Source: a virus. Taken from it: 22,194 bases of DNA. Made by a program: the position numbers and the translations under genes. Below the pieces are notes generated by a model that did no database searches, was not told where the DNA came from, and was given only the letters and a program-made list of their open reading frames with translations. Positions 1 to 22,062 of the stretch are shown here, piece by piece. The stretch's first letter is position 1. Each line of letters begins with the position of its first letter. The stretch lies in the IMG/VR virus record IMGVR_UViG_3300033141_001279, positions 1 to 22,194 of that record, one strand, 5' to 3'.

Positions 1-1
1 T

Positions 2-919
2 GTGGTACGTGAAACCTCCTGGTGTCGTAATTGGGGTATCTTCAGCGGTAAAGATTATCTGACAGCTTGGATTTCTTGCCTCATCCGTGAACCGTTCGAG
101 CCACTACCCTATCTATTTATGTATGGACCACAGAACTCTGGTAAGTCTATTTTCCATGAAGCCGTCAGCCTGCTGGTTACTGGTGGTGTAGTGAAGGCTG
201 ATCGTGCTCTCACTAACTCCAACGATTTCAACGGTGAGCTTGCCAATGCAGTGCTAGGTGTGATTGATGAAGTCAACATTGCCCACGCTGGCCCTTCAGT
301 CTACAACAAGATCAAGGAATGGACAACTAGCCAATACACTAGTATTCACGCAAAATACCAGCAGGTGTATCAGCAACGAAATTGCTTACACTTTGTTCAA
401 ACAGCAAACTTTCGTGACAACTGCCCTATCTTCCCTGGAGACACGCGGATTACCGCCATGTACGTTGGGCCACTGATTGAGGAGATTCCGAAAACAATTC
501 TCACCAGGGCTCTTGAGGAAGAGGCTCCTCATTTTATGGCGACTTTGATGGGGCTTTCACTTCCAACATCCGATACACGACTTCGATTGCCGATTCTTGA
601 CACTGCTGGAAAGGAACAAGCAGCCGAATCCAATCGTGACCCACTTGAAGAGTTCTTTGCGGAAACCTGCTATACGGTTCCTGGCGAAAAGATTCTTTTC
701 AAGGATTTCTACGCCCGATTTGTTGAGTCGTTGTCAGCTTTTGAACAAGCGTCATGGACAAAACGGAAAGTACGACAGAACATCCCCGATAGGTTTCCAG
801 TTGGCAACAATACTGGTGGTCAACTTTACATCGGGAACCTTAGTTTCACAGCGAAGGATGTTCCGCCTGATACCAAACGATATATCGCTAAAGGGCGATA
901 CATCAGCTTGGAGGATTAA
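2..919 (+). CDS. Superfamily 3 (D5/P4-like) replicative helicase, C-terminal part
   Basis: This is an ATP-dependent DNA helicase for phage replication. The reading frame is open to the left edge, so the true start and any N-terminal primase or D5-N domain lie outside the window; only about 305 residues are seen. Counting from base 2, the Walker A motif GPQNSGKS is at 42-49. The Walker B strand VLGVIDEVN is at 84-92 with acidic D89/E90. A sensor segment VQTANF carries N136, and GDTRI with candidate arginine finger R149 follows. This order and spacing is typical of SF3 helicases of the D5/P4 type. The C-terminal region after about residue 210 looks like a winged-helix tail, but that is inferred. 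The gene ends in TAA, and one base separates it from the next ATG. GGAGG inside its last codons serves the downstream gene. Confidence in the helicase call is high; the exact replication role is inferred. Confidence 0.88.
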   Translation: MVRETSWCRNWGIFSGKDYLTAWISCLIREPFEPLPYLFMYGPQNSGKSIFHEAVSLLVTGGVVKADRALTNSNDFNGELANAVLGVIDEVNIAHAGPSVYNKIKEWTTSQYTSIHAKYQQVYQQRNCLHFVQTANFRDNCPIFPGDTRITAMYVGPLIEEIPKTILTRALEEEAPHFMATLMGLSLPTSDTRLRLPILDTAGKEQAAESNRDPLEEFFAETCYTVPGEKILFKDFYARFVESLSAFEQASWTKRKVRQNIPDRFPVGNNTGGQLYIGNLSFTAKDVPPDTKRYIAKGRYISLED

Positions 920-4182: not shown

Positions 4183-7116
4183 TCATGCTTTTGTCGGTTC
4201 GTATAGCTCTCCTTGATTTGGTGAATTAGGATCACCTGGAAACTCCTCGCATTCACCAAAAGGCGAGTCTGGATCAGGAATTCCTTTGGGTGACCAAATC
4301 ATGGATGGGGCCCATACATAGCAATAATAACCACAATTTGCCAAGCGAGTTTTAATTTCAGCCATCTTTGCTAGATAAAATGCCCAAGCAGAAAAGGCAG
4401 CACCAAAGGTATGACAGAAGGCTGATAACGAACCCGTGCAAGGTGTGCCACCACCCACACACCCACAAGGACCACCTGCGCAACCGCCGAGAATTTTTCC
4501 TGATGTTACCCATGTTGGCATTATATACCAAACTATGACTTCATAAACACAACCATCACCATATTGTGGTTGACCACAAGCAGTTCGTTTTTTCTTCTTA
4601 TCAGAATCACCACCTGGTTGTCCAGCCGCAGGAACACCAGCATTCATGGTTTGCTCAGTATTCTGACGATTATTTTTCTGAGCTAGCTTTAAGGCTTTGA
4701 ACTCAGGTGCTTCATCTTCAACATCCTCAAAGTCAGAGATTTCACAGAAGAGGGTAGGTAGTGTATCATCCAAATCAGATGGAAAACGATCACCACTGGT
4801 AAGAACAACGAAATTTTCATCTTGTGTCGTATCACCTCCAGACAAGATATGATCTATCGGCGGTGTTACATTGAAATCATAACCAGGATCGGCCCATTCT
4901 ATTTCTTCATCAAGAGGCCAACGCATGTAAGCAGCTTGCTCCGCAGGCCAGGCCCAGAAATAGGGTTTAGAATCACCAGCGCGAATTGGAGTCCATGCCT
5001 CAAAGTGCATGGTATTGTTAGCATTATCAAACTGTGCTTTTGTAATGACGCATTTCACAGGTGATGGAGAAAACTGTGGCAAATCCAACGTGATGCAATC
5101 AAACAAATCGAGATCAAGATGCTTGATTGGAGTATCAAACTCTACTATCTTCCAAGTATGTGAGCGTCGAATGAGCCAGAAGGTTGCTGATTTTAGGATT
5201 GTGTCATAAGTATTCTGTGTGTAGTAATTGTAACTTTCTTCTTGAACACCATACTTAGAAACATTGTGCTTGAGAATAATCTTCCGTACAACCTCATCAT
5301 CATCCTCTGTACCTACTTCTCCATTTTGCCATGTAACAGAATGCTTTGTCACCAAATCTTCAGTGGGTGTGTAACTGACCTGAAAAGTACCTACAAGAAT
5401 ATCACTAGCTTCTAATGTACGAACAGAAGCGGGCTCTTTTGAGAGATACTTAATGAAGATAACATCATTTCTCACGTAAACTGCGCACCGAGTTTGATAG
5501 GCAATATCCTGAATCAAATCAAGAATGTTCATACGTTCTTTGACCCAGAAATTTGTTGGATAGTTTGTCATACTAGCTCGAACAAGATCAAATGAGTCTA
5601 TATCAATTGTGAGATTGGTATACTTGTTGACCAACCATTCAATGATGTCAACTGGATTTGGACCAATATCAGAAGTTAATGAGATATAAAGTTCATCATC
5701 CCAGTCTGAATCATATAGACTAAGTTTCTTGTTCAAACCAATTTCAGTGACCATGTAACCATCATAGTCTGTCTCGTAAACTGTGTAATAGTCAGACGGA
5801 ACTTCAAGTAGTAGCTTTCTACCAGTCGGTTGTGTCTTGTATGCAGCTACGTGATTGATTGTTGCTGGGAGTAAGCTTACAATGTAAAGAATTTCAGCTT
5901 CATCCTCCAAGTATACGTCAGTTCCCGGCGGAATCCAGAAAAAGCTTGACGTTGGCATAGCATCATAGACAGCTTGAGATTCAGTTGGGCCACCTTCATA
6001 CGCTTGCCTAAAGACTGGATCAGCGTCACAATCTTCTGGACACTCACATTCATTTACATCAAAATACCAAGCTGTACCTGTGTCTGTTTCTTTCCAGCAG
6101 CCTGTCCAGTAGGTTTCAACCAATCCAATGGAACGATCAGCAACAGGCGCACACGTTACGTGTTCTGTTGTGTCATATTCTGGATGCTTTCGTTCCAAGA
6201 CTCGGAATTGCGTCCCGTTGAAAAAACCAGTGAATAAACCACCACCGATATTCAGAGTGATAGTTTCTTCTTGGGGAAACTCTTCACCGCCGCGGATGTT
6301 TAGGTATAAATGCTCATAGGATTGTTGCTGTTCTAGCAAGTATTCCAAGTTGCACATTTCCTCATAGCGGTGTTGTACACATTCCAAGTCTGGTCCATAG
6401 TCTTGTGAGGTTTCTGTCTCATAACCACCTTGACCATCAGGTGTAATTGTAGTTCTCTGTCCTACAGATACGCTTGGACACTGAATGTAACATATCTGGC
6501 AAATTCTGTCTGGTAGTGTAAAATCATGGATACCTTCACCATGCGTAATGACACCACGAAGGGGAGCCCGAACTTGAACAGCCTGCATGTTGCAAACTTC
6601 TCCAAAGACGAGGGGCCAAACTTTACCGAAAGCTTCTTCTGGGATACTAGCAAAATCACCTTCCTCCATTGAGAAGGCAACTTCAGTATCTTCTTGACGT
6701 GTTAGTATATCAAATGAAAGTGTACGTTCACCTTCATTCCAAATGACAGGACTGCTAATTTCACCTTTGAAAAGAAGGAACTTGTGATTTACAGTAAGAC
6801 CTTGGAACCCTTGGTATACCCATACTGGACGCTTATGAATGTCATAGGAATCCAGAAGAGTCTTCAGCTTACCATCAATATCATCCAAGGTGATATTGAT
6901 TTGTTGTGAGTCGCTGGCACCATCTATTTGAATTGCCGTATCAAAATTGCCTACTTGAATGATCCTCGGATAAGGATAATCCAAACCTGACAATTTCTGA
7001 TCGGAATACATAACGCGCGGTCCATCTTCAACCCACTGTACTTCAATGATAAGTAGTGGTTCTGCGCCATATTGCTGTTGTAAATTATTAATAATGCCTG
7101 AAGGAACGTCACGCAT
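4183..7116 (-). CDS. Tail hub / tip-like minor tail protein
   Basis: A 977-residue protein with SD GAGGAGG seven bases before the ATG, which overlaps the preceding TAA (TAATG). Residues about 1-180 resemble N-terminal regions of phage minor tail proteins (DUF2163-like impression), with INITLDD, a beta-rich stretch and the motif GKVWPLVFGEV at 164-174. Around 520-600 the pattern MNILDLIQDIAYQTRC, YVRNDVIFIKYL and ASDILVGTFQVSYTPTEDL resembles hub domains of siphovirus tails (gp27/gpJ-like). About residues 780-845 are hydrophilic, with a DKKKKR run. The last 130 residues are Gly- and Cys-rich (ten cysteines) and unlike the rest. Place in the operon, after the tape measure and tip genes, agrees with a tail-tip hub that closes the tube and may carry receptor contacts. 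The family assignment comes from pattern memory, not a search. Confidence 0.7.
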   Translation of the reverse strand: MRDVPSGIINNLQQQYGAEPLLIIEVQWVEDGPRVMYSDQKLSGLDYPYPRIIQVGNFDTAIQIDGASDSQQINITLDDIDGKLKTLLDSYDIHKRPVWVYQGFQGLTVNHKFLLFKGEISSPVIWNEGERTLSFDILTRQEDTEVAFSMEEGDFASIPEEAFGKVWPLVFGEVCNMQAVQVRAPLRGVITHGEGIHDFTLPDRICQICYIQCPSVSVGQRTTITPDGQGGYETETSQDYGPDLECVQHRYEEMCNLEYLLEQQQSYEHLYLNIRGGEEFPQEETITLNIGGGLFTGFFNGTQFRVLERKHPEYDTTEHVTCAPVADRSIGLVETYWTGCWKETDTGTAWYFDVNECECPEDCDADPVFRQAYEGGPTESQAVYDAMPTSSFFWIPPGTDVYLEDEAEILYIVSLLPATINHVAAYKTQPTGRKLLLEVPSDYYTVYETDYDGYMVTEIGLNKKLSLYDSDWDDELYISLTSDIGPNPVDIIEWLVNKYTNLTIDIDSFDLVRASMTNYPTNFWVKERMNILDLIQDIAYQTRCAVYVRNDVIFIKYLSKEPASVRTLEASDILVGTFQVSYTPTEDLVTKHSVTWQNGEVGTEDDDEVVRKIILKHNVSKYGVQEESYNYYTQNTYDTILKSATFWLIRRSHTWKIVEFDTPIKHLDLDLFDCITLDLPQFSPSPVKCVITKAQFDNANNTMHFEAWTPIRAGDSKPYFWAWPAEQAAYMRWPLDEEIEWADPGYDFNVTPPIDHILSGGDTTQDENFVVLTSGDRFPSDLDDTLPTLFCEISDFEDVEDEAPEFKALKLAQKNNRQNTEQTMNAGVPAAGQPGGDSDKKKKRTACGQPQYGDGCVYEVIVWYIMPTWVTSGKILGGCAGGPCGCVGGGTPCTGSLSAFCHTFGAAFSAWAFYLAKMAEIKTRLANCGYYCYVWAPSMIWSPKGIPDPDSPFGECEEFPGDPNSPNQGELYEPTKA

Positions 7117-7499
7117 TACTTAGCCTCCTCAAATTCCAGAGTAATGTCCATTGTCTCCCCACCGGGAAAATCAACAGCACGTCCACTACCAGCGTGCTCA
7201 AATGGATTGTTAATTAGATACCCAATCCATACGTCATCATTGTGGTCAGTTACTTGAATCTGCACTCGGTAATAGGCATTTATAAAAGCTCGTAATTCAA
7301 GAGCCTTATGACGTGTAATCGTGAAATCCCACTGCAATCGTTTCCTACCATCCTTGGTATGTACGTAAGTATATGCTGTTCCATCCATTGCTCGTAACAC
7401 TTGAAGTGTAGAAGCAATTCCTGATGAGTCACCCCAATTAGGACCGGGGAGAATGACAGTTGATTGCATTGCTGGATAGGGGGCACGTAGCATAAGCAT
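7116..7499 (-). CDS. Small tail-tip protein, paralog of a domain in the 506-residue neighbour
   Basis: A 127-residue beta-rich protein. It starts at the TAATG overlap at 7499, with GGAG eight bases upstream. The pattern LPGPNW ... GTAYTYV ... GRKRLQWDF ... ELRAFI ... QVTDHNDDVWIGYL ... NPFE ... ITLEFEE is typical of small siphovirus tail proteins seen near the tip. It parallels residues about 335-441 of the upstream 506-residue protein (LRAPNL, KLSIFADP, IGIIDWEGRQWMGII, ITFEFEG). A DIT-like or tip adaptor role between tube and hub is inferred. Both its ends overlap neighbours by one base. Confidence 0.7.
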   Translation of the reverse strand: MLMLRAPYPAMQSTVILPGPNWGDSSGIASTLQVLRAMDGTAYTYVHTKDGRKRLQWDFTITRHKALELRAFINAYYRVQIQVTDHNDDVWIGYLINNPFEHAGSGRAVDFPGGETMDITLEFEEAK

Positions 7500-9019
7500 T
7501 ATGGTGACTCCACTGTTTCTACAACTTCATCTGTCATTACAAGTGTATCAGACAAACTTCGTGAAAATTCAACCCAACGCTGTGTCCAAGCCGTCCATTC
7601 AATTGTGTCTGTGAGGGGGCGTGATTTATGGAAGTAGTGAGAAAAACTGTCAACAATTGTCATAGCATTTCCAGACGGCATCTCTTCCACCATCAATCCT
7701 TCAAATTCAAACGTGATGGTGAATCCATGCTTACCATCTTGTACAGCACGTTCATTAGGTGTAGTGATGATACCCATCCATTGGCGTCCTTCCCAATCAA
7801 TGATTCCGATTTCTTGACCGATATGGTCCACCATGAATTGCTGCGTTTCTTCAACCTCTGCTTTTGTTAACCCGGAGAAACTAAGTACAAGTGTATTGAT
7901 CTTTGGCCATGTTGGATCAGCAAAAATAGAAAGCTTTCCACCACGAGTTTCACGATTGACTCGCGTAAAGGATTGTCGCTCCCGATTATCTAAGTTAGGT
8001 GCTCGAAGTTCTACAATATCAATAGATTCACCTAAGGCTGGATACAGTAATAGAAATCGTTCACCTTCTGGAAGTCCCTGGACAAAGGGAACATCACTAT
8101 CAGGTGGGGTTGGACTATCGGTTACGTCACTCTCTCCAATGAAAGGTGTGTATGCTTTGTCATCGCAAGGATCAGGTAGATAATACGTAAGTGAGTGTCC
8201 GATACCAAGAGTATCAATGACAACACGAGACCAATCTCCACTTAGATCAACTATATGCTCCAAGTTCAACCATTGAGCCGGGATACCTTTTGTCTTACCC
8301 CAATCAAGACTTTGAACTAGATTCATGTTAGTTGTAGGAGTTCCACTGCGCCACATATCCTGAGTCAGAGACATAGTTGATGAAACTATAGCCTCATAAT
8401 CACGACCCGCCCAATCTGAAAATTGAATATGATCTTCTAACTTCTCGAAGTAATCTTCGTATGGAAAACCATCATACAAGTGCATCCTTGTCCACATAGT
8501 TTTGTAGATTGGACCAATGACATTGACACTTTGAGTCAATGTCATTTTTGTTTCCATGACGTTGAAAAGTCCTGCTTCAAAATCAATATCCTGTACAAAG
8601 GCCAGGGTATCGTGAAACGATGTATGCTCGCCAACATTCAAAAATTCAGTAAAAATCTCCTCAAGATTCAGGTTGTCTGTGAGGCTTTTTGATTGAACCC
8701 GAGAAGCAGCACCCTCCAAATCTAAATCCTGTAATAGAGACTCGCTAAATTGAGCGGGTACACGCTGAGTAAGCGTCATAGTATCTTTTAAGCGTTCATG
8801 CCGCTCCCACAAACGAAGCTCATCAGTGATGCCAAGATTTTGGGATAAAGTTTTCTCGTAGGTAACAAAAGCTAGTGCAAGCACTTCAATGTACTGTCGT
8901 GTAACACGAAGCTTACCTTCACCTGAGCCAAGAACTTCAGCCATTTGGCGCGTAACGCGCAGTTTACCATCCCCACCACCGAGGACTTCACCAAATTGTC
9001 TCGTTACCCTCAGTGCCAT
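7499..9019 (-). CDS. Repeat-containing tail protein with tip-like beta domain
   Basis: A 506-residue protein beginning one base after the stop of the fifth lectin-like gene. Residues 3-47 contain three units: LRVTRQFGEVLGGGDGK, LRVTRQMAEVLGSGEGK and LRVTRQYIEVLA. Residues about 55-275 contain a loose repeat of the type T-(M/L)-x-L-T-Q or L-(T/S)-D-x-L (MTLTQRV, SLTDNLNL, MTLTQSVNV, MSLTQDM, MNLVQSLDW). The same type returns at the C-terminus (PLTDTIEW, SLSDTLVMTDEV). Residues about 335-441 form a beta domain resembling the downstream 127-residue protein. The build suggests a virion fibre or tip protein with a repetitive shaft and one globular domain. Function is inferred from context and repeat style. 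Its TAA overlaps the next ATG (TAATG). Confidence 0.65.
   Translation of the reverse strand: MALRVTRQFGEVLGGGDGKLRVTRQMAEVLGSGEGKLRVTRQYIEVLALAFVTYEKTLSQNLGITDELRLWERHERLKDTMTLTQRVPAQFSESLLQDLDLEGAASRVQSKSLTDNLNLEEIFTEFLNVGEHTSFHDTLAFVQDIDFEAGLFNVMETKMTLTQSVNVIGPIYKTMWTRMHLYDGFPYEDYFEKLEDHIQFSDWAGRDYEAIVSSTMSLTQDMWRSGTPTTNMNLVQSLDWGKTKGIPAQWLNLEHIVDLSGDWSRVVIDTLGIGHSLTYYLPDPCDDKAYTPFIGESDVTDSPTPPDSDVPFVQGLPEGERFLLLYPALGESIDIVELRAPNLDNRERQSFTRVNRETRGGKLSIFADPTWPKINTLVLSFSGLTKAEVEETQQFMVDHIGQEIGIIDWEGRQWMGIITTPNERAVQDGKHGFTITFEFEGLMVEEMPSGNAMTIVDSFSHYFHKSRPLTDTIEWTAWTQRWVEFSRSLSDTLVMTDEVVETVESP
8876..9013 (-). repeat. Tandem 51-bp coding repeats (17-residue LRVTRQ..EVLG units)
   Basis: Two full units (9013-8963 and 8962-8912) and a partial third (8911-8876) code for L-R-V-T-R-Q-x2-E-V-L-G-x-G-x-G-K. 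Protein conservation is much clearer than at variable positions, so they are an ancestral tandem duplication under selection, close to the junction with the lectin-like array. Confidence 0.8.
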
Positions 9020-9020
9020 G

Positions 9021-10055
9021 TTACCCTACCTTTACACCAAACGCTGCGTTGTTGATTCCGCTCTCTGTCCAAAGAACGCCGGTATCTGGGTCAAGTTCTG
9101 CAATACGACGGAGTGTAAGCCAATCACCACTACCCGCCGCTTGGGGTGAGTCATTATATTCAGTACCGCCTGACTTGATGACGGTAATTAGTGTGAAATC
9201 AGTTGCATCAGTTTCCTTGCAATCGGTATTGATTTGAAGTCCTTGAATCTGTCCATAAGTTGGAACACTGCCATAGTTCCAAATATCCCGATCTCCGCTA
9301 TCGTCATCTTCAATATAGCTAGAGTCATCATCTACTTCTTCCTCATCGACAGTTTCGTAATGATTACCCACAGGCACCACTGTCTCCCAATCTGCAATTA
9401 CGTCTCCGCCACCAGGAAAGATTGCAGATACCTGCTGATTTCCAAGAAAATCATTATTCTGGGCTCCAGTGCTATCGCAGATGTAAAGATCGTCCCAACG
9501 CGGCCAGGTGTAGGATGTCGGCTCGAATCGAATTGAATCGTGGTAATCATTAGACCCAGCTTTTGTATTTACACCTGTGGCACTTGTAATCGTGATGCCA
9601 TCAACTTTAAGTTCATATTCACCACTTGAAGCATGACACTTGACTTTGAACTCAATATGATTCCATACATCAGTTCCAATGTTAGCACCACTTGTTGTTT
9701 CAATAAATGTGGAACCACGGAAGATGTGGATTTCACTACCGCGGTCCTGGGTCCAAAGATTCATGCCCTTTGTGGTACCGTCATAAAGAGACATGATATA
9801 TGAAGATCGTGCTGAGCTACGCTTATGAGCAACACCAACAATCAAGGTATCATCTGTTGTCAATACTGGTGTCTTTATACTACAATTATAACTATTGAAT
9901 TGCAATGCACGTCCACCAAATCGGCCATCTTGAATCCGCATATCAGTTTCGCTAGCGGTAACAGGATACCTACGTGCAAGGATACCTGATGGTGCTGGGG
10001 CAGCACCGATGGTAGTTCCATAGCCTTCAAAACCATCAATCCAAAGTAGTGCCAT
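9021..10055 (-). CDS. LamG/concanavalin-like lectin tail protein, array copy 5
   Basis: A 344-residue protein, last in transcription order of five tandem paralogs. The start at 10055 (MALLWIDGFEGY) is chosen over an upstream in-frame ATG at 10106 because it makes the TAATG overlap, has GGTGG just upstream and matches the first residues of all copies. Residues about 1-205 form a beta-sandwich-like lectin domain: GRFGGRALQF, TPVLTTDDTLIVG, WNHIEFKVKC, YELKVDG and DDLYICDSTGAQNNDFLG. The second half has DWETVV, the acidic segment DDDSSYIEDDDSGDRDIWNY and an ending of LDPDTGVLWT...FGVKVG. Such proteins are known from many phages as structural or adhesin-like; carbohydrate binding is inferred. Confidence 0.72.
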   Translation of the reverse strand: MALLWIDGFEGYGTTIGAAPAPSGILARRYPVTASETDMRIQDGRFGGRALQFNSYNCSIKTPVLTTDDTLIVGVAHKRSSARSSYIMSLYDGTTKGMNLWTQDRGSEIHIFRGSTFIETTSGANIGTDVWNHIEFKVKCHASSGEYELKVDGITITSATGVNTKAGSNDYHDSIRFEPTSYTWPRWDDLYICDSTGAQNNDFLGNQQVSAIFPGGGDVIADWETVVPVGNHYETVDEEEVDDDSSYIEDDDSGDRDIWNYGSVPTYGQIQGLQINTDCKETDATDFTLITVIKSGGTEYNDSPQAAGSGDWLTLRRIAELDPDTGVLWTESGINNAAFGVKVG

Positions 10056-11107
10056 TAGTCCACCTTTACACCAAACTGGGATGAATTGATCCCTGTCTTC
10101 GTCCAATCCAAACCTGTATCTGGATCAGATTCAAGAATGTCATACCGATTAACATACGATGATGACCCTACAGCTTGACTTGTTTGATCATATTCTGAAC
10201 CACCTGACCTAACAATCTGGATGATATCAAATGAAGTCGCATCAGTTTCTCGGCAAATGGTGTGCAATATCAAGCCATCAACTGAGACAAGAGAATCAGT
10301 GATGTCGCCATATTCAAAGATGTCCTTGTCACCAGCATCATCATCCTCAATGTATGATGTATCATCATCTGGTGTTACTTCAGCAACGGCATCTGCATGA
10401 TTAGAACCACCAATCATTGTTTCCCATTCAACTGTATGTTCAGACTCAGGGAAGATTGGAACTACTTTTACCAAGCCAAGAAAATCATTGTTTTTTGAAC
10501 CAGTTCCATCACAAATGTAGAAATCATCAAAACGTGCCTTACGATGGAGACTATCCAGTGAAACAGATGCGTAATAGTTGGAAGTTCCTTCCTGAGTATT
10601 AACACCAGTATCACTGGCAATTGTTTCACCATTCAACCGGAGTTCATACGTCCCAGATGTACTATCACAGTAAACTTTGAATTCAAGATGAAACCATTGT
10701 AACGCCGAGGGGAAGGTAGGATTATCAACTGTTTCAAGGATATTGGTTCCTCGGCGAATTTGAAACTTCCGTCCTGATCCTGGAGCACTGTTAAGACGAA
10801 CATTCATCCCTAAGCTGCCATCACCATCAAAAAATCGAATGATTTCATCGGCATCATCATCAGATTGTTCTGTATAGATGGAGACTCCTACAATCAATGT
10901 TCTGTCTGTCGTCAAATTAGGGGTTCTAATATATAGGCCATCATCATTAAAGAGCCAAAGAGCATAACCACCGAAACGACCTTCTCTAAGCTCATAACAA
11001 TTGCTATCACCAGTATGCGTATAACCGCGACGAGTGAGCGCATTGTTAACATCGGGACCATAGCTCGTTTCATAGCCTTCAAAACCATCAATCCAGATAA
11101 GTGCCAT
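10055..11107 (-). CDS. LamG/concanavalin-like lectin tail protein, array copy 4
   Basis: A 350-residue paralog. The start at 11107 (MALIWIDGFEGYETSYG) uses the TAATG overlap rather than the in-frame ATG at 11158, which would lie inside copy 3. Family landmarks in order are GRFGGYALWLF, TPNLTTDRTLIVG, WFHLEFKVYCDSTSGTYEL, DDFYICDGTGSKNNDFLG, VEWETMIGGSNH, DDDTSYIEDDDAGDKDIFEY, SGGSEYDQTSQAVGSSSY, and a C-terminus RYDILESDPDTGLDW...FGVKVD. It is the closest relative of copy 3, sharing VEWETM/IEWETM, SGG(S/T)EYDQ and the whole RYDILESDPDTGLDWT block, which points to a late duplication of this pair. Role as for copy 5: a probable surface-exposed adhesin or tip appendage. Confidence 0.72.
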   Translation of the reverse strand: MALIWIDGFEGYETSYGPDVNNALTRRGYTHTGDSNCYELREGRFGGYALWLFNDDGLYIRTPNLTTDRTLIVGVSIYTEQSDDDADEIIRFFDGDGSLGMNVRLNSAPGSGRKFQIRRGTNILETVDNPTFPSALQWFHLEFKVYCDSTSGTYELRLNGETIASDTGVNTQEGTSNYYASVSLDSLHRKARFDDFYICDGTGSKNNDFLGLVKVVPIFPESEHTVEWETMIGGSNHADAVAEVTPDDDTSYIEDDDAGDKDIFEYGDITDSLVSVDGLILHTICRETDATSFDIIQIVRSGGSEYDQTSQAVGSSSYVNRYDILESDPDTGLDWTKTGINSSQFGVKVD

Positions 11108-12171
11108 TAGCCCACCTTCACTCCAAATTGAGCCGCATTGACGGTAGCTTGTGTCCAATCTAATCCTGTGTCTGGATCAGATTCCAGTATATCATAACGA
11201 TGAACATATGATGTTGAACCAACTTGTTGACTCGGTTGATCGTATTCAGTACCACCGGAACGAACAACATTGATGAGATCAAAGTTCTGGGCATCAGTTT
11301 CTCGGCAGAGTGTGCTCAACATGACCCCAGCCACAGGTCCGAGACTTTCGATTATGTTCTCGTAATCAAAAATATCCCTATTTCCTGTATCATCATCTTC
11401 GATATATAATGAATCATCGTCTGATTCAATTTCATTGACAGCCCTGGAATGATCTGGTGCGCCGACCATTGTTTCCCATTCGATTGTATGATCTGTTCCA
11501 GGCCAACCAGGTACTACTCGCATCACACCCAAGAAGTCATTATTCTTTGTACCGGTCCCATCACAGACATAGATGTCATCATATTGAATCTGTGAATAAT
11601 TGGTATCCCAGCGAACCGCTTGATGATAATTGGTGATGCTTCCTTTAGTATCAACCCCACTGTCATTTCCGAGCAGGTTTCCATTGAGACGTACTTCCCA
11701 AGTCCCTGCTGAATCGTCACAATAGACTTTGAACTCAATATAAAACCACTCAGCTTCAGGAATCATTTGCCCGGTTAATATATTTAGAAGTGTATTACCA
11801 CGCCAAACTTCAAGATACTCGGCGTCATCATTCAAACGAAGATTCATCCCTTCTAAATTGTCACCATCGTACATTGTAAAGAGACGGGCTGGATTAGCAC
11901 CGTTACGTGTCCCTAGATAGAGAGCAGTTCCTACAATCAATGTTCGATCAGTTGTAAGAGGGTGAGTTTGCCAATAAACATTGGTTCCAGGAAAAAGCTT
12001 AATAGCGTAACCACCAAAACGTCCTGCCGTTAGCTGTGACAAGTTTCCGAAGGTGCTGCCTACTAGCTCATATTTTCGTACCATCCCAATGTATATTTCA
12101 GGACTTTGGTTCCACCCGGGATCAAACTCATCATCCAACCCTTCAAAGCCTTCAATCCAAAGCAATGCCAT
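11107..12171 (-). CDS. LamG/concanavalin-like lectin tail protein, array copy 3
   Basis: A 354-residue paralog starting at the TAATG overlap at 12171 (MALLWIEGFEGLDDEF). Visible landmarks are GRFGGYAIKLF, HPLTTDRTLIVG, WFYIEFKVYCDDSAGTWEV, YDDIYVCDGTGTKNNDFLG, IEWETMVGAPDH, DDDSLYIEDDDTGNRDIFDY, CRETDAQNFDLI and RYDILESDPDTGLDWT...FGVKVG. The DD-x-Y-x-C-D-x-TG-x4-DFLG motif and the C-terminal FGVKVG are hallmarks of the array. It differs from copy 4 mainly in the N-terminal 40 residues and in the loop before SGGTEYDQ, the places expected to meet ligands if this is a receptor-binding lectin (inference). Confidence 0.72.
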   Translation of the reverse strand: MALLWIEGFEGLDDEFDPGWNQSPEIYIGMVRKYELVGSTFGNLSQLTAGRFGGYAIKLFPGTNVYWQTHPLTTDRTLIVGTALYLGTRNGANPARLFTMYDGDNLEGMNLRLNDDAEYLEVWRGNTLLNILTGQMIPEAEWFYIEFKVYCDDSAGTWEVRLNGNLLGNDSGVDTKGSITNYHQAVRWDTNYSQIQYDDIYVCDGTGTKNNDFLGVMRVVPGWPGTDHTIEWETMVGAPDHSRAVNEIESDDDSLYIEDDDTGNRDIFDYENIIESLGPVAGVMLSTLCRETDAQNFDLINVVRSGGTEYDQPSQQVGSTSYVHRYDILESDPDTGLDWTQATVNAAQFGVKVG

Positions 12172-13226
12172 TATCCCACCTTTATTCCAGCTTGAAGGTT
12201 GTCTACATCATCACGAATCCATGCAACACCTGTAACAGGGTTGAGAGGCATTAATCGTGTGAAGGTAAGATAATTACTGTTGCCCACCATTTGCCCAGTA
12301 TCTTCACTTTCTGTTGTATAATCATGCTTGATGACTGTCTTCAATGTTCTCTCTGTTGTTCCAGTAATTCTTGCTTCAGTATGAACTTGAAGTCCTTTGA
12401 TCTCACTTAATGCAGACGGACTATCGTAATGGTAAAGATCAAGACCATCTGTTGTTATGCTTTCAACATATTCGGTATCATCCTGTATCAATTCATCAAC
12501 GGCAGCATAATGATCTGGACCAGGGGTTACATCCCAGTCTGAATCATCACCTGCTGATGAAGGCACAAGTGACTGTACAAAATACCCAGGGCCAAGAAAA
12601 TTATTACACGGCGCGCTACCGGTGCCGTCACAAACCCAGAAATCGTCAAAACGCGGTGACTGCTCCCAGATATGCGTGATACTTTGAAAACGAACAGCCG
12701 CATAATAATCGTTATTTGGATCATCTTGTGTATCAATACCAGTTAGTGTAAGTTCAGTAGTGTTGTCCACTCGAAGTTCCACTGTCCCACTCGTATTGTC
12801 ACAATAAACTTTGAGTTGAATAAACTTCCATTCATCCAGAGGAAGCACGCCTGCCGCAGTTGTACCTAAAACATCCCATCCACGAAGGACACTAAAGGAA
12901 CCGTCACTATTAAGTTGTAGCTGTAGTCCTACATAATAGTTGTCAATTGTTCTGAGTGACATAAAGATTCCATTCTTTGATTCATCTTGATACATGGAAA
13001 ATCCGACAACCAGCGTTCTATCAGTTGTCAAATATGGAGTCTGAAACCAGTGTGTGTTGTCCCAAAGAATGGAAATTGAGCAACCTTCAAATCTACCTGG
13101 TCTTGCTGCAATGTTAAGATTACCGTCTCCAGCTAACTGGTAACGGCATAGCATAATTTGTCGCGGATCGACATAGCCAGAGTCGTCCCCGTAGCGATCG
13201 AATCCGTCAAACCAGAGCAAAGCCAT
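12171..13226 (-). CDS. LamG/concanavalin-like lectin tail protein, array copy 2 (most divergent)
   Basis: A 351-residue paralog starting at the TAATG overlap at 13226 (MALLWFDGFDRYGDDSG). It keeps GRFEGCSISIL, TPYLTTDRTLVVG, WKFIQLKVYCDNTSGTVEL, DDFWVCDGTGSAPCNNFLG and a C-terminal NPVTGVAW...GIKVG. It departs from the others in several landmarks: the acidic segment is shortened to QDDTEYVESITTDG, FLG is preceded by an extra Cys-Asn, and the SGG-x-(E/K)Y element is replaced by HDYTTESEDTG. It is therefore the oldest or fastest changing copy. Order, overlap and size still fit the array. Confidence 0.7.
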   Translation of the reverse strand: MALLWFDGFDRYGDDSGYVDPRQIMLCRYQLAGDGNLNIAARPGRFEGCSISILWDNTHWFQTPYLTTDRTLVVGFSMYQDESKNGIFMSLRTIDNYYVGLQLQLNSDGSFSVLRGWDVLGTTAAGVLPLDEWKFIQLKVYCDNTSGTVELRVDNTTELTLTGIDTQDDPNNDYYAAVRFQSITHIWEQSPRFDDFWVCDGTGSAPCNNFLGPGYFVQSLVPSSAGDDSDWDVTPGPDHYAAVDELIQDDTEYVESITTDGLDLYHYDSPSALSEIKGLQVHTEARITGTTERTLKTVIKHDYTTESEDTGQMVGNSNYLTFTRLMPLNPVTGVAWIRDDVDNLQAGIKVG

Positions 13227-14251
13227 TAACCTACCTTTACACCCATTTCAAGACCATTAACTCCACTCACAGCCCAATTTGTACCGGTATCAGGATCATT
13301 AGCCATTAAACGTAGATCAGTTAAATATTCAGTGCTACCAATAGTATTAGCAGCACTATCATATTTTACCCCACCTGATTTGACAACCGTTTTCAAATCA
13401 TAGGATGTAGTATCAGTGACTCGAACATCTGTACAAAGACAAACAGCTTCGACTACATCAAAGTCTAAAATATCACTGTATTCATAAATATCTTCATTGT
13501 CTGTTACAGTGTCTTCAACATATTCACTATCATCATCGGGATCGACTTCATCAACCAAGGTATGGTGATCTATCACAGTACTAGGGGTCCAGTCAATATC
13601 GGCTGTATCAGCATTAGGCCAAATTGGACTGATCCTTTGCTGACCGAGGAAATCATTATGTTTTGAACCTGTACTATCACAGATGTAATAATCATCAATA
13701 TGTGGTGTATAATTTGCACTAGACTGAAGTCCACGAATTTGAACTTGATCATGATAAGGTTGATTTTCCTGAGTGTCGATTCCTGAATCTAATAGAATAG
13801 TTGCCCCGTTGACACGAAGTTCATAGGAGCCATTTATATTGTCACAAATAACCTTAAACTCAACATATATCCATTTATTTGAGCGTACTAAAATTTCGGA
13901 TGTTTGAGCAATAACAGTATTACCTTTGTAAACAAGTAAGATTCCTGCATCATCAACTCCAATTCCCATACCGGCTATACCATTACTTTGCATCTGAAGA
14001 AACCAATTCCAGTTAGGGACACCCCAAAATCTCAAGGCAAATCCAACAATGAGCGTATCGTCTGTTGTAAGAGCAGGTGTACGAATCCAGGAACTTGAGT
14101 AGTATGGGACCAAAGAATAACCACCAAAGCGACCTGATTCAAGTCTTATTTGACTTGAACCAATGGCATAACGACGTGCTACAATGTTCTGGCAATCTAC
14201 ATTCCAGGCGTCGCTATAACCTTCAAAACCATCCATCCAAAGAAGTGCCAT
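13226..14251 (-). CDS. LamG/concanavalin-like lectin tail protein, array copy 1
   Basis: A 341-residue paralog, first of the array. The start at 14251 (MALLWMDGFEGYSDAWN) is preferred over ATG 14302 because every copy begins with MAL(L/I)W and AAGGTAG lies a few bases upstream; the longer reading would add 17 residues encoded within the hairpin region. Landmarks are GRFGGYSLVPYY, TPALTTDDTLIVG, WIYVEFKVICDNINGSYEL, IDDYYICDSTGSKHNDFLG, DDDSEYVEDTVTDNEDIYEY, SGGVKYDSAANTIGSTEYL and NDPDTGTNW...MGVKVG. It is not overlapped upstream: a 70-base gap with a hairpin separates it from the 160-residue gene, so the array may begin a translationally coupled sub-block here. Confidence 0.72.
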   Translation of the reverse strand: MALLWMDGFEGYSDAWNVDCQNIVARRYAIGSSQIRLESGRFGGYSLVPYYSSSWIRTPALTTDDTLIVGFALRFWGVPNWNWFLQMQSNGIAGMGIGVDDAGILLVYKGNTVIAQTSEILVRSNKWIYVEFKVICDNINGSYELRVNGATILLDSGIDTQENQPYHDQVQIRGLQSSANYTPHIDDYYICDSTGSKHNDFLGQQRISPIWPNADTADIDWTPSTVIDHHTLVDEVDPDDDSEYVEDTVTDNEDIYEYSDILDFDVVEAVCLCTDVRVTDTTSYDLKTVVKSGGVKYDSAANTIGSTEYLTDLRLMANDPDTGTNWAVSGVNGLEMGVKVG

Positions 14252-14321: not shown

Positions 14322-14804
14322 TTAACCGCTGACCGTATAAGTGATCTTTAGCGCGTCACCATTCTGAACCGAAACAGGTGAACTAAACAAAGCCGTGGAC
14401 CACAAGATACCGGATGTACCAGTTTCCTGATCCGTGACAAAGATGCCCCGTAGAGTTGCTGTAGCAGTAATGTTGAAATCAGCCGTAGTTCCGTTCGAGA
14501 TTGAACGACCAGCAGCCGAGCCAACAACCCACTGTTTTCGGCTCCCGCTGTAATCAGTATTTTCTGACCAACCGGCATGCGAAGCGAGTGTATCACTCGG
14601 GTCTACTCCAGAATAGCCAGAATTGTCAATAAGGCCAATATACCAAAGAGCGTGCTGCGTATCATTTCCGAAATGCACGTCAAGTAGGTCATTCATGCCC
14701 ACATCTGTAATACCATTAGGTACGCGATAGACACCAATGAGCTTTCCCGTTTTGTTCCGGTGCTCAATGAAATAATAACCGTGCAGAGGAAGTCGAGTTC
14801 TCAT
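14322..14804 (-). CDS. Putative tail-associated structural protein (160 residues)
   Basis: Starts at 14804, with GGAG eight bases upstream. The protein has a pattern I associate with small phage structural proteins of unknown role: NGITDVGMNDLLDVHFG near residues 29-45, WYIGLIDN, DPSDTLASHAGWSE, RKQWVVGSAAGRSIS, then beta strands ITATATLRGIFV, GILWSTALFSSPV and a C-terminus GDALKITYTVSG. It is likely a virion component (fibre, collar or adaptor), judged from these motifs and from its place between the tape measure and the lectin-like array. It is isolated by hairpins on both sides, so its expression level may be set separately from its neighbours. Confidence 0.6.
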   Translation of the reverse strand: MRTRLPLHGYYFIEHRNKTGKLIGVYRVPNGITDVGMNDLLDVHFGNDTQHALWYIGLIDNSGYSGVDPSDTLASHAGWSENTDYSGSRKQWVVGSAAGRSISNGTTADFNITATATLRGIFVTDQETGTSGILWSTALFSSPVSVQNGDALKITYTVSG

Positions 14805-14914: not shown

Positions 14915-17900
14915 TTAGAAAATTCTTGTCGTTTTCCTTTTGAGTTCTCGTCGCAAGCCAGATGCGATCTCTCGAATTGTCTGGCTTGAATTGTCGCCTC
15001 CTTGCACCGTCACATTGATATCGCCAATATTTGTCACTGTACCACCTTGGTCACGGTAGATCGGCTGTTGCCCCGCATTGATTGCTTGCAACTGCGGGAA
15101 GAAATTGCGTGCTGCACGGGCGTTCACTACGAACTCCCCCGGTGTCAACCAGGCTGGGATACGATCCGTCCCTCGGCCACCATCTTGGAAATAACGCCCT
15201 CCGTGAGCCGCTCCTACGCCGCCTCCCGCACACACTGCCGCAGCTTGGGCACAAGCGGCTGCTGCCGCCTGAGCCGCTAAGGCGGCTTGCTGCATCGCTG
15301 CTGCGGCATTTCCAGCCGCTACCACGGCACTACCTAGAGAGTTTGTAACACTATCCCATGCAGTCTTCAGATTATTTGTAGCTGTTTTAGCATCATTAGT
15401 GGAGTTAATAAGATTATTCATCCTATCACCACTAATAGCAGCAATCTTCCCATCCAAGGCATCCCAATCTTGCCACAAAAGGCGAGCCTGCTGGCTAGCA
15501 TTATTGGTATTAGTTTCAATATCCATCACCCGCCAAACAACTTCATCTACAGCAGGTTTTACTTGATCGAAGCCTTCACCAAGTTTTGGCACAATTGCAG
15601 AAACTTGTTCAATCTTCTGTTGTAAAAGATCAAGACTTGCATTAATTTGGTCTACCTGTTGTGGGATAACAGCAGCCTCCGCAGGAACACCAGTTTCAGG
15701 TACAGCAGGAACACCTGGCGCAGCAGGGACACCTGGCGCAGCAGGAGCCCTAGGTTCAGCGGCGCCCGTTGCTGCTCTAGCTCTTTCGTGCTCTTTAGAA
15801 ATCAATTGATCGAGTTTTTGAAGTTGAGTATCATACTTCGTAACTTGTTGACCCATTGCTCCTGTTACATTATCATGGGCACCTTTAAGAACATCAACTT
15901 TACTTTTAATAGCATCAGTTTTTGTTCCAACTTCATCAGTCTTAGTACCACTTGCTTCAATCTTCTTGGCCCAGTCGTCTGTTTTACTGCCGAGATCGGC
16001 TACCAATTCTCGCATAGCTTTTATAGGAGTATCCTCCCATTTCTCAACTAATTCCCTTTTCCTGGCAACTTCATCAAACTTATCCGCGAGAAGATCAACG
16101 GCCAATTTAAGTTTTTCAGTATTTTCCTCTGTAAGTCTCCCACGTTCAACTTCCATGTCAATTTCAGTTTTTAAGTAATCGAGATTCAATTTGGAAACAT
16201 CAGCAGCGGCTTCAAGAGCATTAGCTACATCACGAATTTTCTGTTCAAGATTATTATAACGATCAATCTCTGCTTGACCCATTCGTTGACAATCCTCTTG
16301 TATCGCTTTTATATTGCCGCGATGTTTAAGGGCTAATTGGACAAGTAACTTCTCATCAGCCAACCAGGGCTTCATATCCACCTGATCAAGAATATCTTTG
16401 ACATGTTGTGTAGCTCGTCCAATATCCTCAGTAAGCTCCATAATTTCCATTTCGTCAGGCTTAAAACGTTGTAATGCTTCTTGTGCCTGATCAAAAGCTT
16501 TACCAGGATATTGACCTGGGTCCTCGTAAGGTAATCGAGGTCGACCTAGAATCTCCCGCGCTAGTTTACTAAGCTTGCCACCAATATCGCCAAAGTCAGC
16601 CTTAAGTTTGAAGACAGTACGATCCAAAATAGCTTGAAGTCGTGCAACTTCAACATCCCAAGCAAATTTGGCTTCAGTTAATACCTTCTGAATACCTTCA
16701 TTGAAGGCTTTCAACCGCTCTCTGTCCGCACCTAAAGCTTTCGCCATTCGCAACTCTTGTTCATCAAAGAGATTACTTCGCATCTGGCGTTCAACTTCGA
16801 CCAAACCCTCTCGAAGTTGTGCAGAACGTTTACTATCTGAATCTTCTTGCTTAGCAAGTTCTTTCTGAATATCAATCCAACGTTCTTTAAGTTGATCCAT
16901 CAACTCCATTCGTCGTTCAACATCATCCCGAAACCGTTGAGCTTCTTGGGTATTCGCTTTCTCCATAGCTTTAGTATGGTTCATTCGTGCCTTTTCTTCA
17001 GCTCGACGTGCTTTAGAAAGTTGCCTTGCTGCCTGATATTCGGCACTACGATTACCCATTTCACGTGCATGTCGAATACGTTCTAATGCCAACTCTTGGG
17101 CACGGTGAGTTGTTTCTAAACCATGACGATATTTCTCTTCATCAATCCCGGCTCTAGCTAAATCCCTTCTAGCTTTTGCTAGTATCTTATCTACTTGCTC
17201 CATAAGCAAGCGATCTTTACGTAATCCTTTAGATTGATCTAGTTCAAGTTTGAAGTCCTGCTCAGCAAAACGTTGTCGCATATCTGAGGTTTCTTGCACA
17301 TGATCTCGCATCTTCTTTTGAAAGTTATCTTGAAGATCAGCAAGACTTTTGATGGCATCCTTACCATCCTTAATGACATTATCCCACATACGGTTAGTAA
17401 GTTCAGCTACAGATTCAACACCAGCATCAACAATTGCTTCCATTCGTTGCCAAACAAGCGAGATCTCAGAGAAGAAATTCCAGGCATTCTGTGCTTGGGT
17501 ATCCCAGAATTTCTTATCAGTATCCATCGCACGTTTACGTGATTCTTCCCATGATTTTGCGAAACGTTCATCCTCAGCCTTAATCTCTCTCAACATTTCC
17601 TTAGCAACTGCACCGACATCAGTAAATGCGTTCTTAATACTTTCAGCCGTAGGAATTTCACCAGTAAATAAATCACCAATAACCTTAGCAGTACCTTCAA
17701 CCCACCGTACAATAGTTGCTAAGCCTTCAACAAATGAGATAACGAATAACGAACCAATTTTAGCCACTTCAATAATTGCAATACCTACATACTTGAAAGC
17801 TTGAGCTATTGTGTCAGCCTCAGGAGTAATCTTTACAATCCATTCTAGCATATCTGCTAATGCTGGAAGAGCCTTAGCCGCTAATTCTTCAAAAGTATTC

Positions 17901-19369
17901 TTCAAGGTAATAATGGCTTTATTAACACGATGGGCAGGTACTTTTGAATATTCTTCAAAGGCTTCTGTCGATGCTTTAGTTGCATTCTTAATTCCTTCAA
18001 TAGCCTCAGCTACATCTTGACCACTATCAACCATGATACCCATTTGACCAGCAATGGCTCGTACACGATTGAAGAACTTTGCCATTTCAGCACTACTACC
18101 ACCTGTTTCTTTAGCAAGCTCACGTAGTAATGAAACTAATCCGCCGAATTTCTTAATAGCTTGTTCAGCATCACGCACCCCCCACTGCCTAAAGAGTCTT
18201 GACATCTCTTCAGTTGGTTTGATAAGCTTCAAAACGATAGCTCGCATTTGAGTAATAGCTGTATTTGCTCTAACACCTTGACGTGTCATTACAGTTAAGG
18301 ATGCAGCTACTTCTTCCCATTCAATCCCTAATTCTGCCGTTAATGGAGTTACACGTCCAAGAATATCCGCGAATTCACTTAAGCGTAAACGACCTAATTC
18401 AATCGTCTTAAATAATGTTCCAGCTACGTGCTCTGTTTCCTCTGAACGTAGTTTATAACTATTCATTACAGATGAAAGAGCATTTACAGCATCACGCGTT
18501 TCAGCATGTGTAATCAATGCAAGTTTTTGAGCCTGTTCAAGAAAATGAAAAGCATCTCCTGCTTCAACAACCTGGTTTGATAATGTTTGGTACAAACCTT
18601 CAGCTACTACCTGAGCCGCAATACCTAGCTCAGATGAAAGATTACGTACCTGATGTGACATTTGCTCCAGATTACCTAAAAGCGGCGGTGCAATGGTTTG
18701 AACTTCAGCGATAGCTAATTGAAAATCAATAGCTGCTTTGGTAGCTTCTTTCATTGAGCTTACAATTGCACTAAAAGCTCGAATAATAAGCTGTGCCTGA
18801 ATTACACGAAGAACTGTTTTCCATGAAAGTGTCATCGTTTTAGCAGCTTGTGAACCTGCCCGTCCCGCTCGCTGCATTTGTTCTGCCATTGTAGCAGCAG
18901 CGCTACTAGCTATCTTAGATGAAGTTTGAACTTGCTTACCGGCAGACTGCATAGCAGAACCAGCTTTTGTCATTGCAGACCCGGCTTTAGTGCTTCCAGA
19001 AGTTACCTGATTCGCCATTTGTTGCGTACTGATACCCATACCAGCAACAGCCTGATTGTACAGCCCACTAAAATTTTGCATTGAAGTGGCTGTACCTTGT
19101 AACCCCCTACCTGTTTGAGCCACAGACCCTTGTGAAGCTCGCATTGCACCAGCAAGTCTTTGCGCAGCTCCGGCTGCTGATTTTGCAGCTGTAGCAATAT
19201 CACGCATATTTTTTGCTGTCGATGCCGTACTTTGATTAAATTGACGCGCAGCATTAGCGGCATCTGTTAACCCTCTTTTGAAACCATCCAAACGCTGCTT
19301 CAAATCAGTCAAGGTTTGAATTGCCTTTGAGGCATCAAAACCTAATTTTTGCGTGATTTCCTCTGGCAT
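14915..19369 (-). CDS. Tail tape measure protein
   Basis: A 1484-residue protein that sets tail length and helps DNA delivery. Residues about 1-180 are Ala/Gln/Ser-rich helical repeats. About 195-400 match the TP901-type tape measure core: AIDFQLAIAEVQTIAPPL, SSELGIAAQVVAEGLYQTLS, AVNALSSVMNSY, GRVTPLTAELGIEWEEVAAS and TRQGVRANTAITQM. A hydrophobic stretch lies near 525-557 (VGIAIIEVAKIGSLFVISF), which may insert in membrane. About 600-1190 are charged coiled coil, followed by a Pro-Ala-rich linker (PAAPGVPAAPGVPAVP) and more helices. The C-terminal module GTDRIPAWLTPGEFVV near 1400 is common in tape measure proteins. The start at 19369 lies one base after the previous TAA; the SD is weak (AGGGG rather far), so coupling is likely. 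At the usual 0.15 nm per residue, the length predicts a tail near 220 nm. Confidence 0.93.
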   Translation of the reverse strand: MPEEITQKLGFDASKAIQTLTDLKQRLDGFKRGLTDAANAARQFNQSTASTAKNMRDIATAAKSAAGAAQRLAGAMRASQGSVAQTGRGLQGTATSMQNFSGLYNQAVAGMGISTQQMANQVTSGSTKAGSAMTKAGSAMQSAGKQVQTSSKIASSAAATMAEQMQRAGRAGSQAAKTMTLSWKTVLRVIQAQLIIRAFSAIVSSMKEATKAAIDFQLAIAEVQTIAPPLLGNLEQMSHQVRNLSSELGIAAQVVAEGLYQTLSNQVVEAGDAFHFLEQAQKLALITHAETRDAVNALSSVMNSYKLRSEETEHVAGTLFKTIELGRLRLSEFADILGRVTPLTAELGIEWEEVAASLTVMTRQGVRANTAITQMRAIVLKLIKPTEEMSRLFRQWGVRDAEQAIKKFGGLVSLLRELAKETGGSSAEMAKFFNRVRAIAGQMGIMVDSGQDVAEAIEGIKNATKASTEAFEEYSKVPAHRVNKAIITLKNTFEELAAKALPALADMLEWIVKITPEADTIAQAFKYVGIAIIEVAKIGSLFVISFVEGLATIVRWVEGTAKVIGDLFTGEIPTAESIKNAFTDVGAVAKEMLREIKAEDERFAKSWEESRKRAMDTDKKFWDTQAQNAWNFFSEISLVWQRMEAIVDAGVESVAELTNRMWDNVIKDGKDAIKSLADLQDNFQKKMRDHVQETSDMRQRFAEQDFKLELDQSKGLRKDRLLMEQVDKILAKARRDLARAGIDEEKYRHGLETTHRAQELALERIRHAREMGNRSAEYQAARQLSKARRAEEKARMNHTKAMEKANTQEAQRFRDDVERRMELMDQLKERWIDIQKELAKQEDSDSKRSAQLREGLVEVERQMRSNLFDEQELRMAKALGADRERLKAFNEGIQKVLTEAKFAWDVEVARLQAILDRTVFKLKADFGDIGGKLSKLAREILGRPRLPYEDPGQYPGKAFDQAQEALQRFKPDEMEIMELTEDIGRATQHVKDILDQVDMKPWLADEKLLVQLALKHRGNIKAIQEDCQRMGQAEIDRYNNLEQKIRDVANALEAAADVSKLNLDYLKTEIDMEVERGRLTEENTEKLKLAVDLLADKFDEVARKRELVEKWEDTPIKAMRELVADLGSKTDDWAKKIEASGTKTDEVGTKTDAIKSKVDVLKGAHDNVTGAMGQQVTKYDTQLQKLDQLISKEHERARAATGAAEPRAPAAPGVPAAPGVPAVPETGVPAEAAVIPQQVDQINASLDLLQQKIEQVSAIVPKLGEGFDQVKPAVDEVVWRVMDIETNTNNASQQARLLWQDWDALDGKIAAISGDRMNNLINSTNDAKTATNNLKTAWDSVTNSLGSAVVAAGNAAAAMQQAALAAQAAAAACAQAAAVCAGGGVGAAHGGRYFQDGGRGTDRIPAWLTPGEFVVNARAARNFFPQLQAINAGQQPIYRDQGGTVTNIGDINVTVQGGDNSSQTIREIASGLRRELKRKTTRIF

Positions 19370-21444: not shown

Positions 21445-22062
21445 TTAGTTTGTTACGTATCCCCATCCGCGTAGCCAGTTCTTAGAACGATTGTATCGAG
21501 AAAATCGTTGTCTAAGTGTGCCGGCCTTTATCTCAAGTGCCTTAGCAGCATCTTGAATACATGGGTAAATTCGTCCTTGAACTTTTACTTTCCGTGCTCG
21601 CGGATTCTTTGAACCACGATTAAGTTTGTTAAGCTTTGAACGTGTAGGATTCTTTGATCCTTGACGTTTTAAGCCTATTTTCTTTTTTGTTTCCTTACTA
21701 TGCTCCTTGCCATACATTCCATTTCTTCGGCCTTTATGTGCTTGACTCATTTTCTTGCGAGTTTCGATTGTAGGTTTCCAACCAATTGAGCCTTCGCCGC
21801 CATCCGTAAGATTATAACCATGTGGTGCTTTCGTATTCAGTTGTGCAATTAGAATAACTTCCAACTGTTTAATGCTATTTTCATCACCTCCACAAAGAAC
21901 ATTAAAAACAAAGCTCTCAACACCATATTTCTGTATGGCTTGATACACAAGCTTTGACCCGTGGTCACACTTATGCTCAATCTAACGGCGACCAACATCG
22001 GTAGTAATACCAATATATTGCTTGTTATTGATGCAATTAGTTATGGTGTAAAGATACCACAT
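21445..22062 (-). pseudogene. GIY-YIG homing endonuclease gene interrupted by an in-frame TAG
   Basis: From ATG at 22062 to TAA at 21447-21445 there are 206 codons in one frame with a single internal TAG at codon 27 (21984-21982). Before it, MWYLYTITN and KQYIGITTDVGRR carry the GIY-YIG signature (Y-x-Y and YIG). After it, IEHKCDHGSKLVYQAIQKYG, NVLCGGDEN, QLEVILIAQLNT and YNLTDGGEGSIG continue the nuclease fold. Then come NUMOD3-like repeats (ETRKKMSQAHKGRRNGMYG and HSKETKKKIG) and a C-terminal DNA-binding segment (IQDAAKALEIKAGTLRQRF). One base change (TAG from TGG or similar) breaks the catalytic domain. A fragment from GTG 21948 would lack the catalytic tyrosines. It lies between two tail-region genes and carries no clear SD, typical of a selfish free-standing endonuclease decaying after insertion. 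Confidence 0.85.

Follow-up and report, generated by a model that had tools for sequence, protein, structure and literature searches.

Organization of the array and its neighborhood

The window analyzed here is the whole 22,194-nucleotide stretch of IMG/VR virus record IMGVR_UViG_3300033141_001279. It contains five open reading frames of 341, 351, 354, 350 and 344 codons, arranged head to tail on the minus strand from position 14251 to position 9021. An earlier sequence-only reading had reported five consecutive genes of these lengths, which was correct, and had left out the strand. The genes are designated copy 1 (A; 13226–14251, 341 aa), copy 2 (B; 12171–13226, 351 aa), copy 3 (C; 11107–12171, 354 aa), copy 4 (D; 10055–11107, 350 aa) and copy 5 (E; 9021–10055, 344 aa). 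All five products matched PHROG 2448 ("unknown function") near full length, with alignments spanning about 300–350 residues per copy and E-values between 2.6e-30 and 8e-40 (4.9e-32, 6.9e-34, 7.8e-37, 8e-40 and 2.6e-30 for copies 1 to 5, respectively). A Pfam search of the five copies matched no family, and the complete window gave no megablast match among phages. All-against-all comparison bore out the proposed paralogy: pairwise amino-acid identity was 34–51%, and copy-versus-copy blastp E-values (1e-47 to 1e-126) were far beyond chance. The motifs on which the paralogy had been based, namely the MAL(L/I)W start, DD-x-(Y/W)-x-CD-x-TG...FLG, DD(S/T)xY(I/V)E and G(V/I)KV near the C-terminus, were aligned in all five copies.

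At each of the four junctions in the array, the stop and start codons formed TAATG with a one-base overlap, and a ribosome-binding site of the form AAAGGT(A/G)G or AAGGTGG was located in the terminal K-V-G codons of the upstream gene. The site for copy 2 (AAAGGTAGG, minus strand, 13230–13238) falls within the final codons (KVG) of copy 1 and is followed by the TAATG overlap; sites arranged in the same way were found on the minus strand at about 12175–12183, 11111–11119 and 10059–10067. Because of the one-base overlaps and the placement of each site within the end of the upstream gene, the five genes are very probably translationally coupled, so that all copies would be made together. An invertible or switching cassette was considered and rejected, since coupling would make all copies together and a search for strong inverted repeats spanning the array genes found none. 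A second rejected reading was that the conserved junctions had recently undergone gene conversion or recombination: synonymous identity was 0.49 in the first 13 codons and 0.47 in the rest, and the conserved DNA at the junctions is therefore attributable to protein conservation and the ribosome-binding sites.

The array is encoded within the tail gene cluster, between the genes for the tape-measure and 160-aa proteins and those for the 506-aa and tail-hub-type proteins, an order that was conserved across relatives. The tape-measure protein (14915–19369, minus strand, 1484 aa) matched PHROG 991 with an E-value of 2.4e-37. The 160-aa virion-type protein (14322–14804, minus strand), which precedes the array in relatives, gave a weak Pfam Gp80 fiber I match, and its alignment matched a solved chain named only "Structural protein" (26la_U, E = 3e-15). 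On the other side, the 506-aa protein (7499–9019, minus strand) is found after the array in almost every relative, and its position suggests that it is a distal-tail protein. Profile searches with this protein matched no known family; its N-terminus contains three near-repeats, LRVTRQ-x-EVL-x-G, that are conserved across relatives. The 977-aa tail-hub-type protein (4183–7116, minus strand) gave weak matches to Phage-tail_3 and to PHROG 31 (central tail fibre J), and a 127-aa protein is encoded downstream of the array, on the side between the 506-aa and 977-aa genes.

Two further observations concern this cluster. The tape-measure protein was 72% identical to that of relative L005, whereas only 168 residues could be aligned with that of the otherwise closer L002, and identity with those of L003, L004 and L006 was 36% or less; to judge from these alignments, the body of the tape-measure protein appears to have been exchanged among members of this group. 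Where the tail cluster ends, at 21445–21948, a homing endonuclease is encoded (PHROG 314, E = 6e-31, with a GIY-YIG family match).

Copy number, history and virion data of relatives

Scanning of IMG/VR detected array relatives at 77 loci; a scan of a genome collection with a narrow alignment returned four MAG contigs, whose hosts are uncertain. Copies per slot were counted only at loci with both flanks, numbering 43, or 37 after near-identical contigs were merged. One copy was present in 14 of these distinct contigs, two in 15, three in 3, four in 1 and five in 4. The statement that most such phages carry one or two of these genes thus held for this tail cassette (29 of 37 contigs). Because the slot holds one to five copies in relatives, five is the top of the range, and five copies were also found in the close relatives L001, L002 and L005 and in the more distant L023.

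In a tree of 132 copies, window positions 1–5 were orthologous to positions 1–5 of L001, L002 and L005. Orthologues of copy 1 occupied position 1 in L001–L007, those of copy 3 were restricted to the five-copy relatives L001, L002 and L005, and L004, L006 and L007 had positions 1 and 2 only. Orthology by position persists from phage to phage, so the copies are old and distinct. Because trees of the 977-aa and 506-aa proteins placed L005 beside the window and L001/L002 and left L004 outside, copies 3–5 were most simply acquired by the ancestor of the window, L001, L002 and L005; their loss in L004 is a possible alternative. The five copies of L023 fell elsewhere in the tree, so that L023 reached five separately. 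Contigs L019, L029 and L066 had further family copies beyond the 506-aa gene, and the tree paired copies 1 with 3 and 2 with 4 of L029, which suggests that a two-gene block was duplicated there.

Known phages also carry the family. Phages of the Chi-like group (Casjensviridae) have three tandem genes beside the tail-fibre gene, all matching PHROG 2448; in FSL SP-088 these are gp39, gp38 and gp37. A total of 162 phage records, including Chi and YSD1, matched gp37 over most of its length, usually at three places per record. The Chi-like arrays (FSL SP-088 gp39–gp37, YSD1_33 and AchV4 gp25–gp27) share the family, the tandem layout and the adjacency to tail genes with the window. They differ in that they comprise three genes located after the tail-fibre gene, whereas the window has five between the tape-measure and distal-tail genes, and their proteins are about 23–27% identical to the window copies. 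The window array is not a unique oddity: its five copies mark the upper limit of a slot with variable copy number, and it is related to the three-gene array conserved in Chi-like phages.

The Chi-like array is followed by a gene whose product (open frame of 431 aa) matched the C-terminal domain of the array proteins only. Hence, the C-domain travels with different N-termini, as a docking part would. An unannotated reading frame of about 408 codons with the array C-domain was seen at 8678–9904 of FSL SP-088 (L083, NC_021780.1); a frame matching it is annotated at the equivalent place in SPN19 and Smarc6. The slot itself recurs in Tetraselmis viridis virus S20, in which gene TVGG_00032 lies, as in the window, after the tape-measure gene and a small gene and before a tail assembly protein gene; it differs in having one copy, and its small gene encodes a glycoside-hydrolase-like protein. 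The recorded host of this virus (L086, NC_020840.1) is algal and its gene order is that of a tailed phage, making the host label doubtful.

Virion data exist for Achromobacter phage AchV4, which has three tandem homologues, gp25–gp27, adjoining its tail-fibre gene. LC-MS/MS of AchV4 virions detected gp25 (22 peptides, 75% coverage) and gp26 (14 peptides, 36% coverage), and the authors noted that neither is similar to a characterised structural protein; the remaining homologue of the three, gp27, was absent from the reported virion proteins (PMC7996906). The single homologue in phiCbK was not among eight virion proteins found in a gel-based survey that found few proteins (PMC3556154).

Predicted fold and domain-wise divergence

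Copy 4 was modelled by AlphaFold2 with a 120-sequence alignment, giving a mean pLDDT of 94.6 and a pTM of 0.93; a poor model from the five window sequences alone (pLDDT 57.9) was set aside. The copy 4 model consists of two mainly-beta parts, residues ~1–213 and 214–350, with the boundary set by eye from secondary structure and the alignment; the corresponding domains of copy 1 are residues ~1–204 and 205–341. The N-terminal part was modelled as a concanavalin-A-like jelly roll and the C-terminal part as beta-rich. The beta-sandwich lectin domain that the sequence-only reading had called for is thus present in this model.

The leading Foldseek matches in the PDB (E = 8e-7 to 5e-5) were concanavalin-A-like jelly rolls. 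The enzymes and lectins among them included alginate lyase Aly36B, a glucuronan lyase, the calreticulin lectin domain, GH131, legume lectins and pentraxin, together with an arabinanase lectin-like domain; a sequence-profile search independently matched the arabinanase domain (5hon) with an E-value of 6e-4 over positions 33–168. The phage matches were TM4 gp23 (receptor-binding domain; PDB 9n6a) and the Pan3 tailspike (9vyh), which resemble the predicted N-domain in fold, gave no sequence match to the array at E-values up to 1 and are not known as arrays. Against viral models, the best full-length matches of copy 4 (TM ~0.85) were other phage proteins, and the matches included an AchV4 "virion structural protein." A search for solved structures of Chi-like array copies found none.

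From the model, the N-domain is predicted to have a lectin-type fold of the concanavalin-A-like lectin/glucanase (LamG) superfamily. None of the five window copies matched a Pfam LamG-type family above the curated cut-off, and Laminin_G_3 was matched in 2 of the 120 relatives (best E = 1e-5); the filing in the LamG superfamily is therefore by predicted fold only. Enzymes, as well as domains that bind no sugar, can have a jelly-roll lectin-type fold.

The two domains were then compared between the window and L002. Most neighbor genes and copies 1 and 2 had a synonymous difference (pS) of ~0.37–0.51. In copies 3, 4 and 5 the pS of the lectin domain rose to 0.70, 0.68 and 0.69, respectively, and it fell back to 0.49 (copy 4) and 0.47 (copy 5) in the C-domain. 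The lectin domain changed faster than the C-domain in copies 1, 3, 4 and 5. Copy 5 shared 65% of its lectin-domain residues and 94% of its C-domain residues with L002, whereas copy 2 was an exception, with a very conserved lectin domain (93% and 86%, respectively). Mean conservation over the five positions in two comparisons was 0.67 for the lectin domain versus 0.80 for the C-domain, and the most variable stretch (0.37) was residues 81–90 of copy 4, which are mostly loop. Between most orthologues the lectin domain thus changes more rapidly than the C-domain, as would be expected if a binding surface were adapting; dN was below dS throughout, so that positive selection on average was unsupported. 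In Chi-like phages, the lectin domain was just slightly faster than the C-domain. The pS values between the window and L002 suggest, rather than prove, recombination at the boundary between the lectin and C-domains of copies 3–5, because pS was also raised in two other small tail genes (g181, 0.60; g168, 0.69) and low in g127a (0.20), and because values near 0.7 approach saturation, which makes the recombination signal moderate.

A putative set of co-displayed adhesins

Taken together, the array is probably a co-expressed set of two-domain virion adhesins, in each of which a lectin head is joined to a C-domain that docks. We consider it highly likely that the five products of this uncultured phage are virion tail proteins, and we infer their presence in the virion itself. 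A single message with coupled translation would yield all five proteins. The first ~210 residues, with their concanavalin-A/LamG-like jelly roll, would form an outward, surface-binding head; there is a better than even chance that the heads bind surface glycans, and the chance that different copies have different ligands is about even. No ligand-binding motif could be read from the array sequences. The C-terminal beta domain of ~135 residues would most likely dock the protein on the tail; we infer this division of roles because the C-domain is more conserved in most copies and is common to proteins with other N-termini. The phage would thus display several different lectin heads at once, with copies 1 and 2 older in the slot and copies 3–5 representing an expansion whose lectin domains may diverge or be exchanged fastest. 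The earlier description of lectin-like tail proteins, suggested to form a multi-adhesin tip or to be variants for different surface glycans, is supported in part: the predicted beta-sandwich fold, the tail-cluster position, the faster-changing lectin domain and the AchV4 homologues in virions are in its favor. Five-copy arrays are not unique to this phage, and arrays of three are the norm in Chi-like phages.

The proteins could instead be structural blocks of the tail or baseplate, such as a hetero-oligomeric ring or a tail decoration, with the lectin fold serving as a scaffold without host binding. The homologues in AchV4 virions, the slot fixed between tape-measure and distal-tail genes in one lineage and the retention of several copies in a fixed order would all fit such blocks. 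However, a copy number of one to five beside the same neighbors is not what would be expected of an obligate ring, the array sits elsewhere in Chi-like phages, after the tail-fibre gene, and it is the lectin-fold domain that changes faster; we regard this explanation as unlikely.

Another explanation is that the N-domains are enzymes, polysaccharide lyases or hydrolases, degrading capsule or exopolysaccharide during approach. Alginate lyase Aly36B, glucuronan lyase and the GH131 enzyme are among the closest solved folds, Pfam Polysacc_lyase was weakly matched in 4 of the 120 relatives (best E = 5.7e-5), and one relative, in Pam4, is annotated as a polysaccharide lyase. Yet none of the five window copies matched an enzyme family, the near-invariant residues across 120 members were mostly Gly, Trp, Pro and Asp around the DD motif and gave no lyase catalytic set, and such jelly rolls serve non-enzymatic lectins equally, which leaves an enzymatic role quite improbable. 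Recent dosage amplification, in which five near-equivalent copies supply more of one protein, would suit tandem, co-expressed genes of the same length but is very hard to sustain for paralogues that share only 34–51% identity, differ strongly at silent positions and lack homogenisation at their junctions (codon identity 0.49 v 0.47); it is also contradicted by the tree, in which orthology follows position between phages.

Returning to the co-displayed adhesins, a more speculative extension is that the slot acts as an evolvable cassette, in which tandem two-domain lectin genes come and go (one to five copies) beside constant neighbors, the heads of the later copies are replaced through recombination with relatives, and the docking C-domains are kept. 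If this were true, each particle would carry a varied set of lectins that the phage could also renew. PHROG 2448 is widespread: the Chi-like phages covered by this analysis have it, as do many phages from the environment, and the laboratory phages Chi and YSD1 carry three such genes, still annotated as hypothetical. The family has no assigned function in PHROGs, to which the present analysis adds a predicted fold and a probable virion role, and the lectin fold, the AchV4 virion proteomics and the variable-copy slot together give PHROG 2448 a testable role.

Display of several binding proteins by one particle is known from Kuttervirus tailspike clusters and similar systems; there the proteins are large tailspikes or fibres whose N-termini are conserved and whose C-termini vary. 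Four variable tailspike genes have been noted (PMC3728262). The window array, by contrast, encodes small two-domain lectin-fold paralogues in which the variable part is N-terminal.
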